A stretch of DNA of 64,000 nt, from the NCBI GenBank assembly GCA_902617025.1, contig CACMVB010000001.1, positions 124,001-188,000 on the forward strand. The letters are read 5' to 3'. A program made the position numbers and the translations under genes. The notes under the pieces are model-generated. The model made no database searches. It was not told the origin of the DNA and worked only from the letters and a program-made list of their open reading frames with translations. Positions 46,053-52,325 of the stretch are shown in pieces; positions within the stretch are counted from its first letter, which is position 1; each line of letters opens with the position of its first letter. This stretch comes from an uncultured Pelagibacteraceae bacterium. Lineage in GTDB: Bacteria; Pseudomonadota; Alphaproteobacteria; Pelagibacterales; Pelagibacteraceae.

Positions 46053-46138
46053 TGGTGCCCTCGGCCAGACTCGAACTGGCACTCCCAAAAGGGCAAGGAT
46101 TTTAAGTCCTTTGTGTCTACCAATTTCACCACGAGGGC
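46053..46138 (-). tRNA. tRNA-Leu (TAA anticodon), attachment site of the island
   Basis: 86-base class II tRNA on the minus strand with acceptor GCCCTCG/CGAGGGC, anticodon stem AAGGA/TCCTT around the 7-base loop CTTAAAA (anticodon TAA), a long variable arm and encoded CCA. Nucleotides 1-39, from the 5' end to the end of the anticodon loop, plus one upstream base recur exactly at 51126 and 52286. The gene therefore served as an integration site, and its present 5' half and promoter probably came from the inserted element. Confidence 0.97.
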
Positions 46139-46139
46139 A
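46100..46139. repeat. tRNA-Leu attachment core, copy 1 (left end of element 1)
   Basis: 40-bp core identical to those at 51126-51165 and 52286-52325. It begins with the 7-base anticodon loop (TTTTAAG, 46100-46106 on the plus strand) and runs to one base beyond the tRNA 5' end. In the intact tRNA the loop is flanked by the inverted arms AAGGA and TCCTT, a layout that fits a tyrosine-recombinase core with a 7-base overlap. Confidence 0.9.
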
Positions 46140-46154
46140 TTCCGTGTTTTTTGT

Positions 46155-46207
46155 TGTTATTGTTAATATATTAATACACAAGAGTTTTGAAGAAGTAAAA
46201 AAAAATT
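46155..46207 (-). promoter_or_regulatory. Element-borne upstream region of tRNA-Leu
   Basis: The region just 5' of the tRNA (on its strand) is about 53 bp and is nearly identical to 51181-51233, which lies at the same place beside core copy 2; I count two substitutions. It contains TATATT/TATTAA boxes suitable as a -10. The third copy, at 52326 onward, has an unrelated AT-rich flank. Conservation beside a truncated tRNA suggests that elements carry their own promoter to restore tRNA expression after insertion. Confidence 0.5.
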
Positions 46208-46219
46208 ATTTTACGTCTC

Positions 46220-46255
46220 TATCTTCTAGTTGTCTTCTAGTCTTCCCATATTTTA
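46220..46255. repeat. Arm repeats A, left end of element 1
   Basis: Two copies of TCTTCTAGT (46222-46230 and 46233-46241; 11-bp period), followed by a segment identical over 19 bases (46237-46255) to 49729-49747. They lie 83-102 bases inside core copy 1. The spacing of one helical turn suggests paired protein-binding sites. Confidence 0.75.
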
Positions 46256-46291
46256 TATGACAATAAATGAGTTTTTTTCTGTCTGCGGCAA

Positions 46292-46310
46292 CTGGCAACA
46301 GAACGCACCT
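46292..46310. repeat. 19-bp direct repeat, left copy
   Basis: Begins CTGGCAACAGAACGC and matches 46564-46582 at 18 of 19 positions. The two copies flank the small membrane-protein ORF. Purpose unknown. Confidence 0.7.
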
Positions 46311-46343
46311 TGCACTACAATTAAGCATGATAAATAATAAAGC

Positions 46344-46559
46344 ATGATTGATTTTAAAAAAAATCCTAAATTAGCATTATTCACTTATGGAATATTATTA
46401 TGTTCTGCTCTGATAGAAATAGGTGCAGAACTTGGACTCCATGAATTTGATGATTTTGCTTCACATCACGGCTTAGCAATTTTTTCTATCGGAAGTTTAA
46501 TTGCTAATTGGGAAAAAATTTCTCAAATATTAACTAAAGGTAAAAAAAAGAAATATTAA
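46344..46559 (+). CDS. Small membrane protein of unknown function
   Basis: Not recognised. 71 aa with one or two hydrophobic stretches (about residues 8-28, LALFTYGILLCSALIEIGAE, and a weaker one near 42-54) and a lysine-rich C-terminal end (LTKGKKKKY). No clear Shine-Dalgarno. It is the first ORF inside element 1 and is flanked by 19-bp direct repeats, so it may be a small cassette. Confidence 0.5.
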   Translation: MIDFKKNPKLALFTYGILLCSALIEIGAELGLHEFDDFASHHGLAIFSIGSLIANWEKISQILTKGKKKKY

Positions 46560-46563
46560 GCAC

Positions 46564-46582
46564 CTGGCAACAGAACGCTCCT
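46564..46582. repeat. 19-bp direct repeat, right copy
   Basis: Second copy of the CTGGCAACAGAACGC repeat, 272 bases after the first and 5 bases after the small ORF stop. Confidence 0.7.
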
Positions 46583-46673
46583 ACTTAATTTAATATTTAA
46601 AAATATAATCCTCTTTAATAAAAGATTAAATATTTTGTAATATAGGCTTAATAATTAGATGTTCTGATTACTT

Positions 46674-46739
46674 ATGTTTAAACTAAAAAAAATATTAAAA
46701 AAGATTTATTATTTTATCTTCCCTAAGGAGCTTAAATAA
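46674..46739 (+). CDS. Candidate 21-aa micro-ORF
   Basis: Reads MFKLKKILKKIYYFIFPKEL plus a final Lys, a basic amphipathic peptide. Its TAA shares a base with the ATG of the next micro-ORF. It has no strong Shine-Dalgarno. It could encode a small peptide or a leader. Too short to support a function. Confidence 0.25.
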   Translation: MFKLKKILKKIYYFIFPKELK

Positions 46740-46786
46740 TGTGGCCATACAACGATAAAGAAAATGAGTTTATCTCATTGAATTGA
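46739..46786 (+). CDS. Candidate 15-aa micro-ORF
   Basis: Reads MWPYNDKENEFISLN. A good Shine-Dalgarno, AAGGAG, lies 8 bases before the ATG, and the start overlaps the preceding micro-ORF stop (TAATG). The pairing looks like translational coupling, but coding cannot be shown from one sequence. Confidence 0.25.
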   Translation: MWPYNDKENEFISLN

Positions 46787-46811
46787 ACTGTTTTAGAGAA
46801 TATTATTTTCA

Positions 46812-47432
46812 TTATTTTATGATATTTTCAATAATATAATTTGATTTAGCATCATTCATTCTTATATTTTTAAATGTGTAAAAATATTTTTTTTTTTTTA
46901 TTTTTTTTATTTTGGAAATAAATAAAAATTGAGTATGAAAAACAAGGAAATTAATATGATTTTTATTTAGTTTTTGGTTAATTTTACCATTTTTTCGATG
47001 ACTATGTAATATTAAACCAAGTTTAAAATCTTTTGTGATGCCTCTAATCTTGACTAGATTGCTTTCTTTAAAAGAAATAAAATAAACATTCTTCTTAAAA
47101 CCATTACATGTTTCAAGCAATCGATTTAAAGTATTTTTCCTAAGCAGAGGCTTAATCTCAACTAACACTTTTGTATTTACAGTTAAAATTTTTAAAAGAT
47201 CACATAGTTTTGTTATCTTGTATTTTTTTAAATTCTTATCAAGAATTGTTCTAGTTTTTTTTCTGATATTGAATAACCTTCTTAAGCTATAATCATGAAA
47301 GCAAATGGGTGTATTGTTTTGGGTAAAGTGAATATCAGTCTCAATATTAAACTTTTTTTTTATACACTCTTTAAATGAAGTAATATGATTTTCTCTAAAG
47401 TTTTTTTCAATTAATCCTCTGTGTATAAACAT
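46812..47432 (-). CDS. Glycerophosphodiester phosphodiesterase family protein
   Basis: GDPD TIM-barrel enzymes release glycerol-3-phosphate from glycerophosphodiesters. The N-terminal HRG (IHRGL) and the metal motif ETDIHFTQNNTPICFHD (near residues 31-47) are present, with VEIKP near residue 91. At 206 aa it is shorter than the usual 240-250 and seems to lack part of the C-terminal barrel. No signal peptide, so cytosolic. Its ATG overlaps the MFS gene stop (TAATG), so the two form one unit. Confidence 0.8.
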   Translation of the reverse strand: MFIHRGLIEKNFRENHITSFKECIKKKFNIETDIHFTQNNTPICFHDYSLRRLFNIRKKTRTILDKNLKKYKITKLCDLLKILTVNTKVLVEIKPLLRKNTLNRLLETCNGFKKNVYFISFKESNLVKIRGITKDFKLGLILHSHRKNGKINQKLNKNHINFLVFHTQFLFISKIKKIKKKKYFYTFKNIRMNDAKSNYIIENIIK

Positions 47433-48646
47433 TATTTTAATCCCTTGGTTCTATGCAATATGATCCATCCAAAAAAGAGCAGTAAAAGAACTGAGGCAAA
47501 ACCTATCCTTTGATTTTCAGTTATGAAAGTAATGGTTCCTACTAAAAATGGGCCAAAAAAAGACGTTAGCTTTCCAGAAGTAGCAAATAAACCAAAGGCT
47601 TTATTCTGATCCTCAATTTTTGTTAATTTAGTTATCATGACCCTACTAGCTGATTGTATTGGTCCTATAAATAATCCCAAGAAAAATGAAAAAATAAAAA
47701 AACTAATTTTTGACTGTGTAAAAATGATTAAAATGGAGAAGAAAATAAGACATATCAAGGAAAAGGAAATTGTTTTTTTTGAATTATATTTATCATTGAA
47801 ATATCCACCAAAACTAGCACCTATTAAAGCAGCAACATTCATTAAAACAGACATCATTAAAAGTTCATTTATTGATAGTTTAAATACCCCAACAGCAAAA
47901 ATACCTCCCATGACAAAAATGGTATTTAAACCATCAGCATAAAGTAGCCGTGCAAACAAAAAACGAGTTGTGTTAGTTAGACCATTATTCCAAAGAATCT
48001 TTTTTAAACTATTTGATTTTTTTTTGTTTGGTTCAACTTTTTTATATTTTGTTTGACTTAATAGTGGATAGGAAAAAATGAGAAACCAAAGGGCTACAAA
48101 AATGGCAGTGGATCTAAAATTAATTTTTTGATCTAAATCGATTAAATAATTTGATTGAATTAATAAAATAATGGTCAAAACAAGTGTGATAATACCACCT
48201 AAATACCCCAGCGCAAAAGCAAAACCAGACACCTTTCCCACATGTTGTTTATCCGCTGAATGAATTAATAATGAATTATAGAAAATAGAACTTAGTTCAT
48301 AAAAATAGTTTGCCAAACAAACTATGATTAAGGTAAATAAAATATATTCAGTAGATGGTTTTGCAAACCATAATGCTGCTGTAAAAAGTATACATAAATA
48401 GGTGCTTGATTTTAAGATAATTGAGTTTAAATTCTTCTTATCAGCTAAATTTCCTAAAAAGGGTCCGCTTAATGCAATGCATAGTCCTGATACTGAAATG
48501 GCCCAACCCCAATATGCCTGGCCATTAACCATATCTTGAACAATTGACTCCGCAAAATAATTTGAGAAAACAAAAGTTATAATAACTGTTGTAAAGGCAG
48601 AATTAGCAAAATCATAAAGAGAAAATTTATAAGATTTTAAATTCAT
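47432..48646 (-). CDS. MFS transporter, UMF1/Atg22-like
   Basis: 404 aa with about 12 membrane helices. The opening KFSLYDFANSAFTTVIITFVF is characteristic of the UMF1 (BtlA/Atg22-type) branch of the major facilitator superfamily, and GPFLGNLADKK is the loop 2-3 motif. The substrate cannot be deduced. Sharing a transcript with a GDPD enzyme suggests, by inference, import or export linked to glycerophosphodiesters or their products. Confidence 0.82.
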   Translation of the reverse strand: MNLKSYKFSLYDFANSAFTTVIITFVFSNYFAESIVQDMVNGQAYWGWAISVSGLCIALSGPFLGNLADKKNLNSIILKSSTYLCILFTAALWFAKPSTEYILFTLIIVCLANYFYELSSIFYNSLLIHSADKQHVGKVSGFAFALGYLGGIITLVLTIILLIQSNYLIDLDQKINFRSTAIFVALWFLIFSYPLLSQTKYKKVEPNKKKSNSLKKILWNNGLTNTTRFLFARLLYADGLNTIFVMGGIFAVGVFKLSINELLMMSVLMNVAALIGASFGGYFNDKYNSKKTISFSLICLIFFSILIIFTQSKISFFIFSFFLGLFIGPIQSASRVMITKLTKIEDQNKAFGLFATSGKLTSFFGPFLVGTITFITENQRIGFASVLLLLFFGWIILHRTKGLK

Positions 48647-48700
48647 GCTAATTTAATATCTTATAAATCCAGAACCACGATCGCTAAAAGTTTTTTCATT

Positions 48701-49663
48701 TTAAAGTTTATTACAATTGTACCCTAAATTTATTAGGTTTAATTTATTACATTGATCTGCAAATCTTATTTCATCTATGTACAAAATTTGAACTGTTGAC
48801 GCTTCCTCATACTTCCATTTAGTTTTCACTTTTTTTCCTTTAGCCTTTATTTGATTTGCTCTTGGTTGATAAATACCAAAATTTGTTGACGAGAGTGATG
48901 AGTTTCCTGGCATTTTATTTTGCATATCTACAATTTTTTTGCCGTTAACCCATATGAATAAACTTTTCTTATTTGGTGTATGTACTATTACATCTATCCA
49001 CTTTCCTAAGTGATTAGAAAAATGTTTTAAATCAAAAAAAGGTGGATCGTGATATTTTTCGCTTATTTTTCTACAAATATTTTTTCCCAGAAGTTTTTTG
49101 CTAATTTTCACGCACTCATTGTCGTGAAGAAAACTTCTTAACTGTACATTTACAATTCCTTCAGGTGAAATACCCATTCTATAATGTGCACCTTTGCCTT
49201 TTCTATGTATTTGATTGAATATAAGTGGCGTATTTGAATGAATATAATTTTTAGGGATTAATACGGAAAATGAAAGCCATTTACTTCCCCAATCCCGATA
49301 CTTTGTTCCTATAAAAACTCGTCGTGCTCCCTCATAGCAATTGTTCCAGTTATTTATGCTATCATTTGATTTCTTGTATATCCCACAATCACCTGGATGA
49401 CTTTCAAATTTAATAGAGAAATTATCTTCTCTTGACATCTCATCTGTGATTATCAAACAGTGATCAGGTCCTTTACCTTTCTGCCAACAAGCATCCCAAT
49501 GGTTCATTCTCAATTGTTTTCCATCAAGAGCACTTTCAGGTAAATTAATTAAACGCGAATTACCACTACTTTTACCTCCAGCTAATTCTTTCCATACTAT
49601 TGGATCAGCATATGAATTATTTAAAAAGAGAAAAAATAATAAAAATATAGACAAACTTTTCAT
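48701..49663 (-). CDS. Secreted polysaccharide-lyase-like protein (heparin lyase I-like fold)
   Basis: 320 aa with a signal peptide (MKSLSIFLLFFLFLNNSYA, cleavage near residue 19). The body resembles the jelly-roll polysaccharide lyase group that includes heparin lyase I-like and glucuronan lyase-like proteins: FESHPGDCG, WGSKWLSFSVLIP, LIFNQIHRKG near residue 150, HLGKWIDVIVHT near 218 and IWVNGKKIVDMQ near 235. Several cysteines may form disulphides. Predicted periplasmic or secreted. Substrate unknown. Assigned from motif pattern only. Confidence 0.6.
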   Translation of the reverse strand: MKSLSIFLLFFLFLNNSYADPIVWKELAGGKSSGNSRLINLPESALDGKQLRMNHWDACWQKGKGPDHCLIITDEMSREDNFSIKFESHPGDCGIYKKSNDSINNWNNCYEGARRVFIGTKYRDWGSKWLSFSVLIPKNYIHSNTPLIFNQIHRKGKGAHYRMGISPEGIVNVQLRSFLHDNECVKISKKLLGKNICRKISEKYHDPPFFDLKHFSNHLGKWIDVIVHTPNKKSLFIWVNGKKIVDMQNKMPGNSSLSSTNFGIYQPRANQIKAKGKKVKTKWKYEEASTVQILYIDEIRFADQCNKLNLINLGYNCNKL

Positions 49664-49710
49664 CGTTAAAATTTAAATTATCAGTATTAAATATTTATGA
49701 AAAGTAAAAA

Positions 49711-49747
49711 TTATCTTCTAGTCTGCACCTAGTCTTCCCATATTTTA
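49711..49747. repeat. Composite arm repeat B inside element 1
   Basis: The left part (49711-49728) is identical over 18 bases to repeat C (50989-51006) and the right part (49729-49747) is identical over 19 bases to repeat A (46237-46255). So a right-end-type arm is fused to a left-end-type arm without a core between them. This is what a deletion across a tandem element junction would leave. Confidence 0.7.
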
Positions 49748-49831
49748 GCAGTGATAAGTGGACATAAAAGTTGGGTTAAGTTGAAGAGTTATTAACGTAT
49801 CAAAGCTAGTCTGTTTGATGATAAGTTTAAA

Positions 49832-50950
49832 TTAGTAACGAATATAATTTTTACCGTATAAACAACCTGAGTGAATAGCCAAAGCTCCACCAGAATAATC
49901 ATCTAAACTAAATCCAGTTGCAATTTCATGAACTTTTTGAATATTTTCTGTATTATTTTTTTCGTCGTTTAAATAAAACGGTATCCAAGCTACATGGGCT
50001 CCATAACCTCGAGTTTTGACTATACTTGTTTTGCCTGCATCTGGGTCTAGGCCTGCAATTTCTTTGTTGTTATTTTTAATCAGTCTTTTAGCATGTGTTT
50101 CTAATTGATCTCTAAGAGAACCATTTTTAAATTTAGTGTTATAAATATTGAATCCATTCAATCTTAAAACTTCAGCTCCTTGAATAACGTGTTGGATAAC
50201 TTCATTATTACCTCTTAACTTTTTTTCAAAAAATTTTTTTTTATCTAAAGTTTTCATTAAATTCATATAAATTTCATAACCTTCCACAAATAGTTTTTTG
50301 TCATTAATTGCCGCGCCCCACATGATAAATGAAGTTGCTCTAGCGAATTTTGTATCGATTGTAAAATATTTAGTATCGTCTCCAGAAATTGATTTATATC
50401 TTCCAGCATCTTTGTTCTTAATTCTTGCATCAGCTAAATAAGAATTTTTCTTTAAGTCTTCAACGTAAATATTCAGTTGATTAATTTCTTCTTTATTTAA
50501 TTTGTTTTTATTTCTCAAATACGAAGTAGAATACGCTAAAGATTTTATTAATATATTTGTCACAAATGAAGGTGATGACCCCCCTTTTTCAGTCCAATCA
50601 ACTTTTTTAAAACTATTTGATATAGAGAGATCAACCAATCTTTTTTTAAATATCCCATCTTCTTTTTCAGAACTGTAACCAGCTAGGGCGTTATTTAGGT
50701 AAGCGGTATTATCCTCTATAAAAGTTGACGCTCCATCTATTGCCAACGGTTCCTCATAACCTTGGATGAAATCTGAAAAATTTTTGTTTAGTGTTAATGC
50801 GCCTCTCCCTGCATATCTACAGCTTTCTTCATTAACTTTTGATAAATCTAAAAGTTTTAAATCTTTTGTAATTTCAATGCTATGTGAAGGAATATGTAAA
50901 AATAATAATAACGTAAAATTTATTATTATCAATTTTAAAAGTTTTCTCAT
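49832..50950 (-). CDS. Secreted alginate-lyase-like protein
   Basis: 372 aa with a signal peptide (cleavage near residue 24, after HIPSHS). The mature part is mostly helical and resembles the PL5/alginate lyase alpha-toroid group: a RGNNEVIQHVIQGAEVLRLNG segment near residue 245-265 sits where alginate lyases have the NNHxYW motif, but the His/Tyr residues do not match exactly. Catalysis is therefore uncertain. Predicted periplasmic. Located at the right end of element 1. Confidence 0.42.
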   Translation of the reverse strand: MRKLLKLIIINFTLLLFLHIPSHSIEITKDLKLLDLSKVNEESCRYAGRGALTLNKNFSDFIQGYEEPLAIDGASTFIEDNTAYLNNALAGYSSEKEDGIFKKRLVDLSISNSFKKVDWTEKGGSSPSFVTNILIKSLAYSTSYLRNKNKLNKEEINQLNIYVEDLKKNSYLADARIKNKDAGRYKSISGDDTKYFTIDTKFARATSFIMWGAAINDKKLFVEGYEIYMNLMKTLDKKKFFEKKLRGNNEVIQHVIQGAEVLRLNGFNIYNTKFKNGSLRDQLETHAKRLIKNNNKEIAGLDPDAGKTSIVKTRGYGAHVAWIPFYLNDEKNNTENIQKVHEIATGFSLDDYSGGALAIHSGCLYGKNYIRY

Positions 50951-50978
50951 TAGATCATTTTACCAAATTTTCCCTCTC

Positions 50979-51008
50979 TGTCTTCTAGTTATCTTCTAGT
51001 CTGCACAA
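50979..51008. repeat. Arm repeats C, right end of element 1
   Basis: TCTTCTAGT at 50981-50989 and 50992-51000 (11-bp period), followed by CTGCACAA. The repeat ends are exactly 137 and 126 bases before the first base of core copy 2, the same distances as in element 2. Confidence 0.75.
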
Positions 51009-51075
51009 ATTAATTTGCCTTGATTTCTAATGCTAATTGAAAGGTTAAATAATAAAATAAGGATTGATAATTTTT

Positions 51076-51102
51076 TGAGACTACCTGAGACTGTCTGAGA
51101 CT
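51076..51102. repeat. Core-proximal iterons of element 1
   Basis: TGAGACT three times with a 10-bp period (51076, 51086, 51096), starting at -50, -40 and -30 from the core at 51126. Element 2 has different iterons at exactly the same offsets. Confidence 0.75.
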
Positions 51103-51125
51103 CTAATCTTACTGTATCCTTGGGG

Positions 51126-51165
51126 TTTTAAGTCCTTTGTGTCTACCAATTTCACCACGAGGGCA
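51126..51165. repeat. tRNA-Leu attachment core, copy 2
   Basis: Truncated tRNA-Leu (nucleotides 1-39 plus one base), identical to copy 1 over 40 bp. To its left the sequence departs from the tRNA exactly at the anticodon loop, so no functional tRNA can be made here. Confidence 0.9.
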
Positions 51166-51244
51166 CGTCGTTATTTTTATTGTTATTGTTAGTATATTAA
51201 TACACAAGAGTTTTAAAGAAGTAAAAAAAAATTAATTATCTCTT

Positions 51245-51267
51245 TATGTACAAGTCATGTGCAAGTA
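51245..51267. repeat. Arm repeats, left end of element 2
   Basis: GTACAAGT (51248-51255) and GTGCAAGT (51259-51266), 11-bp period, ending 90 and 101 bases after core copy 2; the equivalent pair in element 1 ends 91 and 102 bases after core copy 1. The 16 bases at 51245-51260 are identical to 52139-52154. Confidence 0.72.
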
Positions 51268-51290
51268 ATCCCATTTTTTATAGGATTAAA

Positions 51291-51884
51291 CTATAATTTT
51301 AATTTTATATTTTTATTAATAATGGCCAACATTACTCCCATTAAAAAATTTTCTCCGATTGCAAGACAACTTCCTCTCTTAATTAAATCTTTATCAACAT
51401 CAGTATCGGGTATTGCTTTTATATTTCTTATAATTGCAGTTGCTATATGTTGACCAGTTGAAATTAATTTAGCTCCATCACCTTTCGTTATATTCGAAAG
51501 TCCCCACTTCAGCGCATTATTTCCATCATGACTAAATTTGCCATCAGCGTCAGTTTCTAATTTAAGATTAGGAAATATTTTATCTTTGAATGGCTTTGAT
51601 CTTTTATCGCTTAGACCTAAATTGAATAAGCTCACTGCATTAACACAACTTTGTGTACGTTGAGAGTTTTCAACTTTCATCCCTAATCTACCAATCACTA
51701 CACCAATTAAAATACAAATACATATTTGATAAGTTTCTTTTTCTGGTCGAGTTATAATTTTATTAACTTTATTATATTGATCAACTTTTGATGCATCATC
51801 TAAAAAATCGACGTAAGCTTTAAGTGCACTAAATACAATTAAATTTGAATGTTGTTCAATTCCCTCAATCTCTTTAGCGTCCAT
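51291..51884 (-). CDS. Element 2 protein of unknown function, 197 aa
   Basis: Not recognised. It has a possible membrane or buried helix near residues 50-70 (TYQICICILIGVVIGRLGM) and another near the C-terminus (ENFLMGVMLAIINKNI), with a soluble middle containing ALKWGLSNITKGDGAKLISTG. No signal peptide and no DNA-binding or recombinase motif (no R-HxxR-Y pattern). It follows the 62-aa ORF by 3 bases, so the two are probably co-transcribed. Confidence 0.65.
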   Translation of the reverse strand: MDAKEIEGIEQHSNLIVFSALKAYVDFLDDASKVDQYNKVNKIITRPEKETYQICICILIGVVIGRLGMKVENSQRTQSCVNAVSLFNLGLSDKRSKPFKDKIFPNLKLETDADGKFSHDGNNALKWGLSNITKGDGAKLISTGQHIATAIIRNIKAIPDTDVDKDLIKRGSCLAIGENFLMGVMLAIINKNIKLKL

Positions 51885-51887
51885 TAA

Positions 51888-52076
51888 TTATTTATCTCCT
51901 TTAAAAAAACCAACAATGCATCCAAATAAATAAAGGAAAAGAATTATATTTATAAGTGTATTTTCAAAATACATTAGTCCAATAATTGCTGGTATCGCCA
52001 ATAAAATATATTTTCCAGGAAATGACCATCCATATTTTTCAGAATAAAATACTTTTTTACTTTTTTTATCTTTCAT
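51888..52076 (-). CDS. Element 2 small membrane protein, 62 aa
   Basis: Not recognised. A basic N-terminus (MKDKKSKKVFYSEKYGWSFP) is followed by two hydrophobic segments (about residues 22-37 and 42-58) separated by a short polar turn. First gene of a two-gene unit in the 1.16-kb element. Confidence 0.55.
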   Translation of the reverse strand: MKDKKSKKVFYSEKYGWSFPGKYILLAIPAIIGLMYFENTLINIILFLYLFGCIVGFFKGDK

Positions 52077-52138
52077 TTGTTTAGATTAACAGAATTAAAC
52101 TATATTGCCGAGTCGGTTTTTATTCGGCTCAGTGTTTC

Positions 52139-52170
52139 TATGTACAAGTCATGTACAAGTTTGCACAAGT
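52139..52170. repeat. Arm repeats, right end of element 2
   Basis: GTACAAGT at 52142-52149 and 52153-52160 (11-bp period), plus a third, GCACAAGT, at 52163-52170. The first two end exactly 137 and 126 bases before core copy 3, as in element 1. The GCACAA after the repeats is shared with element 1 at the same offset. Confidence 0.75.
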
Positions 52171-52235
52171 AAATTTCATTGAATTTCTGTTATTTTTTTT
52201 AGAGAGTGATTTTTTTGCTTTTATTTTGTGGATTT

Positions 52236-52260
52236 CGATACAGAGGGATACTAACGGATA
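52236..52260. repeat. Core-proximal iterons of element 2
   Basis: CGATA, GGATA and GGATA with a 10-bp period (52236, 52246, 52256), at -50, -40 and -30 from core copy 3, the same offsets as the TGAGACT set of element 1. Confidence 0.65.
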
Positions 52261-52285
52261 TTGATTAAAATGTGAATCCTTTGCC

Positions 52286-52325
52286 TTTTAAGTCCTTTGT
52301 GTCTACCAATTTCACCACGAGGGCA
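52286..52325. repeat. tRNA-Leu attachment core, copy 3 (right end of the island)
   Basis: Third exact 40-bp copy. The sequence to its right has no similarity to the flank shared by copies 1 and 2, so this is probably the displaced original 5' half of the chromosomal tRNA-Leu. Confidence 0.9.

Follow-up and report, generated by a model that had tools for sequence, protein, structure and literature searches.

Integrase-less cassettes with attP-like ends at a SAR11 tRNA-Leu gene and their probable integration in trans

SAR11 cells are very abundant and streamlined, and how they gain their variable genes is poorly understood. The window analysed here, a stretch of 64,000 nucleotides from an uncultured Pelagibacteraceae bacterium (host genome 1.04 Mb, 98.8% complete), holds two adjacent elements whose ends follow one geometry with different repeat sequences. 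The original prediction read this as one recombination machinery with diverged arm-binding specificity, perhaps so that each element answers only to its own integrase. This raises the question of which enzyme such ends would serve, and where it is encoded.

The tRNA-Leu(UAA) site and its two elements

The elements lie beside a tRNA-Leu(UAA) gene, the 5' half of which is present three times in the window as a repeated core. The features of the locus are as follows.

46053..46138, minus strand: tRNA-Leu(UAA), integration target
46100..46139, minus strand: core copy within the tRNA, TTTTAAG to GGGCA on the plus strand
46140..51125, unstranded: element 1, apparently composite integrase-less cassette, ~5.0 kb
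46140..46211, unstranded: element 1 left-end block adjoining the core, conserved between elements; possibly the tRNA upstream region
46222..46230, plus strand: element 1 left arm copy 1, TCTTCTAGT
46233..46241, plus strand: element 1 left arm copy 2, TCTTCTAGT
46812..47432, minus strand: element 1 cargo, GDPD-like protein
47432..48646, minus strand: element 1 cargo, MFS/ATG22-like transporter
48701..49663, minus strand: element 1 cargo, polysaccharide-lyase-like protein
49714..49733, plus strand: relic left arm pair within element 1, TCTTCTAGT and GCACCTAGT
49832..50950, minus strand: element 1 cargo, 372-aa protein, no Pfam match
50981..50989, plus strand: element 1 right arm copy 1, TCTTCTAGT
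50992..51000, plus strand: element 1 right arm copy 2, TCTTCTAGT
51076..51102, plus strand: element 1, three TGAGACT core-proximal repeats, 10-bp period
51126..51165, minus strand: core copy separating elements 1 and 2
51166..52285, unstranded: element 2, integrase-less cassette, ~1.16 kb
51166..51237, unstranded: element 2 left-end block, resembles that of element 1
51247..51255, plus strand: element 2 left arm copy 1, TGTACAAGT
51258..51266, plus strand: element 2 left arm copy 2, TGTGCAAGT (one mismatch to TGTACAAGT)
51291..51884, minus strand: element 2 cargo, 197-aa protein, no match
51888..52076, minus strand: element 2 cargo, 62-aa protein, no Pfam match
52141..52149, plus strand: element 2 right arm copy 1, TGTACAAGT
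52152..52160, plus strand: element 2 right arm copy 2, TGTACAAGT
52237..52260, plus strand: element 2, three GATA core-proximal repeats, 10-bp period
52286..52325, minus strand: core copy at the far end of element 2

The spacing that had drawn attention to the locus is exact to the base. In both elements the right arms end 137 and 126 bases ahead of the core TTTTAAG (51126; 52286) and are followed by GCACAA at an equal offset (51003-51008 in element 1, 52163-52168 in element 2), and the left arms end 91 and 102 bases past the core in element 1 and 90 and 101 bases past it in element 2. The core-proximal repeats had been placed at -50, -40 and -30 in both elements, which is correct for TGAGACT in element 1; in element 2 GATA itself begins at -49, -39 and -29, so the register common to both is NGA(G/T)A. 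An exact arm pair is found at three of the four window element ends, the fourth having one mismatch. Among 200,000 simulated 40-bp stretches of the window's dinucleotide composition, 52 held a 9-mer with an identical copy 11 bp further along, within 16 offsets. Arm sites repeated on both sides of a core that is identical to part of a tRNA gene are the arrangement expected of the attP of an arm-binding tyrosine integrase. The first reading lacked three points: the core is the 5' half of tRNA-Leu(UAA), no integrase was found in either element, and element 1 appears to be composite.

Element 1 has moved recently, since together with the tRNA and core it is 99.94% identical to genome G023 over 5114 bp, whereas the flanks are 77.5% and 80.2% identical. 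Many further element pairs are 97-99.9% identical, with flanks of 66-81% where aligned, although many have no 200-bp flank alignment; in the pairs of L057 with L067 and L071, a 98% 'far flank' lies past the core that starts another shared element. G006 is a counter-case, its flank on the tRNA side being no more diverged than the element (96%). Neither G023 nor G006 has element 2 at the corresponding junction. The left part of element 1 occurs alone as a 3782-bp element in G135 (L058), and element 1 seems to be a fusion of two cassettes from between which the core has gone, the relic left arm pair (49714-49733) lying where they join.

A cassette family in two genera

The core was found in 108 of 151 same-genus genomes and, in a family-wide search, in 280 of 397 genomes. 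By hand count, 36 of the same-genus genomes, including that of the window, carry the core two, three or four times, with some of the copies on different contigs. The site is empty in relatives L010, L013 and L026, where both window flanks meet at one core. We examined 79 core-to-core segments, 40 from the window's genus (the window and L042-L081, covering all 36 genomes with at least two cores) and 39 from a second genus, the latter from 29 loci hand-picked among the matches listed and not a random sample. A GT-ended left arm pair lies at the same offset in 37/40 segments of the window's genus, the other three having no left arms, and in 27/39 of the second, where several of the remaining 12 show arms that end otherwise. 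Rather than being found nowhere else, the spacing occurs at other tRNA-linked islands in both genera. Of 169 same-genus genomes, that of the window alone has the complete element 2; elsewhere the first ~120 bp of the element are widespread, and G013 has 174 bp of it at 90% identity.

Other arrangements are also seen at this site. In L052, L064 and L073, two fragments of tRNA-Leu enclose a segment of ~6.9 kb that lacks arm pairs and has genes in both orientations, another kind of insertion at the same tRNA gene. Segments of ~2.18 kb without arms lie between cores in L237, L243 and L244; in the last two, both core copies resemble the tRNA side, so the segment may be a duplication. In L192 (G013) and L194 (G044), the core after class A right ends is shortened, which looks like a loss of the distal portion of the site.

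The arm sequences of an element vary together. In the window's genus, the two copies of 21 distinct left pairs differ by 1.24 mismatches (3.17 when re-paired), and the left and right arms of 19 distinct elements differ by 0.74 (2.50 when shuffled). The second genus gives 0.79 versus 3.10 mismatches for 19 distinct pairs and 0.68 versus 2.95 for the left and right arms of 19 elements. In each of these four tests 0/20,000 permutations matched the data, related elements being only partly independent. Identical arm sets were collapsed, both arms had to end in GT in the real as well as the permuted sets, and left ends without a GT pair, including chromosome-side flanks, were dropped (49 of 86 kept in the window's genus, 31 kept in the second). 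The left/right test includes three cases that bias against the result: L057 and L075, whose right 9-mer is spurious, and L230 at 11275, where the pair is doubtful. Elements with unlike ends are L045, L046 at 4129, L057, L075, L239, L241 and L250.

Conservation differs along the ends. Between class A left ends with unrelated cargo, identity is 0.89 over the 67 bp by the core, 0.77 over the arms, 0.79 over the next 14 bp and 0.36 over the cargo; the corresponding class B values are 0.90, 0.59, 0.65 and 0.37, and shuffling gives baselines of 0.37 (67 bp) and 0.43 (20 bp). At right ends of the GAGACT type the 10-bp repeats are 0.87 identical and the arms 0.61; at other right ends the repeats are 0.67, the arms 0.65 and the stretch between them 0.52 identical. 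Two of these comparisons count against the reading preferred below: the 14 bp after class A left arms are roughly as variable as the arms themselves, and the arms of non-GAGACT right ends are more alike than the neighbouring stretch. The class A block also adjoins tRNA-Leu at the arm-less loci L018, L052 and L073, which suggests that it is the tRNA upstream region carried along. The left-end block may restore a tRNA promoter; a promoter scan of the region gave one weak site, not above shuffles.

Neither element was found to contain an integrase in a protein and Pfam scan or with profiles of the matching integrase family described below, which were also applied because Pfam misses several of its members. 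In the whole window genome there is a single Phage_integrase match, a 325-aa frame elsewhere that is presumably Xer, and zero profile matches to the matching family. A matching integrase is encoded in 0/40 segments of the window's genus, none of which has an integrase relic, and in 2/39 of the second genus (G330, G294). The idea that each element answers only to its own integrase is therefore not borne out; as the window elements and nearly all their relatives are without a matching integrase, they would answer to one in trans.

The cargo is diverse, the 124 ORFs of the 40 window-genus segments falling into 52 clusters, the largest with 11 members, and all picked ORFs are directed toward the tRNA in 27/40 segments. 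Pfam was run on 30 of the 52 cluster representatives and on the window proteins. Examples are a Type ISP restriction-modification protein (L056), a methylase with a ResIII helicase (L060, Type III-like; L045), a JetC-like protein (L055, weak), a Mokosh-like helicase (L061) and a DHQ synthase-like protein (L048); satellite-type genes were absent from the scanned cargo. As in cis-mobilizable elements, att sites flank an element without integrase or transfer genes, the cargo scans covering part of the clusters. The definition of tycheposons includes carrying a recombinase, which the window elements do not.

Integrases of related elements and their N-terminal domain

Integrases linked to this type of site are found in a few relatives. 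Among 43 IMG/VR stretches with the exact core, six (L083, L110, L117, L121, L111, L115) carry a recombinase of one divergent family and have left arm pairs at the cassette offsets. With G330, a chromosomal case, and G294, eight sequences link the same site type to a tyrosine integrase gene, as expected of an attP. L083 is a 7.8-kb contig with the core near both ends, and its GAGACT repeats keep the same register as those of window element 1. Its genes code for an integrase of 545 aa, a primase-like protein of 781 aa and a RusA-like protein; no capsid gene was recognised among the eight ORFs scanned. The integrase-bearing elements look satellite-like.

The family is rare, being present in 1/151 same-genus genomes and 10/397 family genomes, three of the latter with full-length proteins; two GTDB loci match it (in the same assemblies as G330 and G126). 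Its members are 515-570 aa long, and five of seven tested were missing from Pfam results or below the cut-off. R373, K400, R485, H508 and Y518 (L083 numbering), the catalytic residues of tyrosine recombinases, are invariant in nine aligned sequences, and the position three before R485, where H is usual, has another residue here. The best Foldseek matches of a structural model are Tn1549 Int, XerA/XerH and lambda Int (best E 7e-7), which agrees with a tyrosine recombinase fold. Confidence in the model is moderate (pLDDT 74, pTM 0.43), and its N-terminus has strands at 70-76, 79-88 and 91-99 followed by a helix. Truncated N-terminal matches occur in L176 (G155), L179, L181 and L182, and are either decayed genes or stand-alone arm-binding domains. 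The L175 integrase as query gave no relatives in IMG/VR, the L083 integrase had no match among INPHARED phages or PLSDB plasmids, and class B repeats were not found in IMG/VR.

Neither repeat type served as a marker by itself. The arm-pair pattern alone picked out ten IMG/VR loci, of which seven, inspected by eye, had no att-like context and 0/10 matched the integrase profile. GAGACT 10-bp repeats alone occur in 29 IMG/VR stretches, including L083, L110 and L121; 0/26 of the others match the profile, and a Pfam integrase is present in only 4/23 records searched. As these stretches are mostly without an integrase, the motif is not diagnostic without the core. An excisionase was sought in the ~97-aa protein encoded behind the integrase, whose confident model (pLDDT 87) had no significant PDB match (a putative excisionase was fourth, E 1.0); one homologue has weak HTH_7 and AlpA matches below cut-off, and calling it an excisionase is a guess.

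The same tRNA-Leu core is also found with a different attP layout, characterised by AGTAGCGGATAG-like motifs, in L099, L100, L108, L120 and the pelagiphages HTVC105P/HTVC109P, so at least two integrase systems share the site. In L082, L088, L090 and similar viral contigs the core lies just upstream of an apparent gene start, unlike either attP type.

When repeat types were paired with the linked integrases, arm sequence was found to track the putative arm-binding N-terminal domain (n=8). L083 and L121, with nearly the same arms, share 93% identity in this domain and 94% in the rest of the protein; L083 and L110, with arms ACCCTAG and ATCCTAG, share 76% and 94%; L111 and L115, with GGGCAACT and GGGTAACT, share 56% and 95%; and L117 and L184, whose arms are two letters apart (ATTACTAGT, GTTTCTAGT), share 73% and 59%. 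The silent rate of L111/L115 is also elevated in the N-domain (1.47 vs 0.19), suggesting that domains were exchanged. Across the eight integrases arm distance tracks N-domain distance given the rest (partial Mantel r 0.61, 0.0008 of 40,320 permutations), whereas the reverse partial correlation, the rest given the N-domain, is 0.07 (0.37). Leaving out residues 1-30, some of whose codons make up the right arms in these genes, gives a partial r of 0.59 (0.0032); for the five members of the L083 clade the value is 0.94 (0.017 of 120). The boundary of the N-domain was placed by hand from the alignment at residue 118 of L083, and the arm 9-mers were likewise aligned manually. The correlation does not include the G126 integrase (L166), which is full-length, since neither core nor arms were found for it.

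One integrase can be matched to candidate cassettes. In the integrase-bearing G330 element (7776 bp), GTTTCTAGT forms both left arms and the first right arm, and the integrase-less, 6370-bp element of G280 (L255) has GTTTCTAGT arms at both ends. The last 60 bp of the G330 element are 88% identical to those of G280, the closest of 38 others (next best 77%), and the left 120 bp of the two are no more alike than in other elements. L248 contains another element that has no integrase and bears GTTTCTAGT at each end. In the second genus, L233 has arms resembling those of window element 2 (TGTACAAGT/TGTGCAAGT); among the integrase-bearing relatives no integrase with arms TCTTCTAGT or TGTACAAGT (or TGTACAAGT/TGTGCAAGT) was found.

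Movement of the cassettes and comparison with known systems

These results bear out the idea of one recombination architecture with diverged arm repeats, as the layout is held in two genera, both ends vary together and the arms track the N-domain in eight integrases. Each window element has complete attP-like ends for an arm-binding tyrosine recombinase, consisting of the tRNA-Leu 5'-half core, two 11-bp-spaced arm sites per side and three 10-bp core-proximal repeats that may also play a part, with crossover probably within the anticodon-loop segment of the core. Integrases from rare satellite-like elements at the same tRNA would integrate the cassettes in trans, and excision is presumed to occur likewise. 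The arm repeat would act as the address, read by the N-terminal domain of the integrase, and cassette arms and N-domains would have diversified together. Hitchhiking of integrase-less cassettes, integrated in trans by arm-specific integrases, is in our judgement the best reading and probably the right one.

Other explanations can be weighed against the same evidence. If the cassettes were old and spread with chromosome segments exchanged by homologous recombination, the att-like ends would be fossils; the high conservation of the tRNA and left-end blocks and the 96% identity that in G006 continues into the tRNA-side flank would fit this. However, the 99.94% identity with G023 gives way to 77-80% at both boundaries, the tRNA and the core end, and the arms differ likewise at four positions beside a left-end block that is ~0.9 identical, unlike drifting fossils, which makes this account rather unlikely. 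Slightly more weight, though still little, can be given to a CIME-like origin, in which the cassettes are deletion remnants of integrase elements, mobile only in cis beside an integrase-bearing neighbour. Tandem stacking with shared cores, the fused cassette in element 1 and the truncated N-terminal integrase matches in a few genomes are in line with it. Yet in the tandem arrays that are present such a neighbour is almost always missing, the integrase family being absent from the window genome and 150/151 same-genus genomes, and the 40 segments have no integrase relic and the scanned cargo no satellite-type genes.

Pelagiphages that use the same tRNA could also be the helpers, as HTVC105P, HTVC109P and AP013542 carry the core beside an integrase gene. 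Their attP flanks, inspected by eye, have AGTAGCGGATAG-like inverted motifs instead of an arm pair at the cassette offsets, and contigs sharing this attP type encode integrases of only distant similarity (E about 1e-5 to 1e-4), so that we think this very improbable. Chance repeats in A+T-rich DNA are hardly credible: GC is low and short motifs (the arm pair or GAGACT alone) recur in unrelated viral contigs, but the offsets are fixed in dozens of elements of two genera, and both simulation (52/200,000) and permutation (0/20,000 in four tests) reject a low-complexity origin.

Hitchhiking cassettes would be one concrete route by which SAR11 gains variable genes, bringing one to several genes to a fixed tRNA site without carrying an enzyme. 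The cargo types entering in this way include restriction-modification and other predicted defence proteins, DHQ synthase-like proteins and transporter genes, and island searches based on the integrase gene would miss most of these elements. A wider picture, for and against which we see about equal grounds, is of an open exchange in SAR11, where integrase-less cassettes bear interchangeable addresses, diversifying outside integrases decide which of them move, and the domain that recognises the arms changes more quickly than the catalytic part, from which its evolution is partly uncoupled. Arm sites and the domains reading them vary naturally, which could open the specificity of arm-binding integrases to testing; if the reading is true, the pairing of repeat and domain would be a readable specificity code for arm-binding tyrosine integrases.

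No paper title describing these SAR11 cassettes was found in the open-access literature searched. Several known systems are comparable. As far as the relevant parts of the source describe them, the ssrA islands of Dehalococcoides depend on a serine recombinase, with 15 islands without an integration module beside 16 with one (PMC3146451). Like these and cis-mobilizable elements, the SAR11 cassettes stand in tandem at one RNA gene, some having att repeats and no integration genes beside others that possess such genes; unlike them, they have a tyrosine-integrase layout and arm addresses, with an integrase in 2/79 segments. CALIN and integron cassettes and MITE 'hitchers', in the portions of PMC11389934 that concern them, are likewise enzyme-less units with few genes, occurring in arrays and moved by an outside enzyme; the SAR11 cassettes differ in that each carries an attP-like site with arms by a tRNA core. 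Tycheposons and VEIMEs, going by mentions in PMC10872708 and PMC11389934, are also marine integrative elements and resemble the integrase-bearing relatives; the window cassettes differ in having no recombinase or recognised replication genes. In the tRNA-Lys additive flexible genomic island of Methylopumilus, recurrent tRNA fragments similarly mark an added island in a streamlined aquatic bacterium, and arm sites are analysed only for the SAR11 cassettes, so far as the passages on this island go (PMC10872708). Finally, the integrases share with arm-binding tyrosine recombinases, as outlined in sections of PMC8138268, N-terminal arm-binding, core-binding and catalytic domains and the arm sites by the core, and differ in forming a divergent family of 515-570 aa with a fast-changing putative arm-binding domain.
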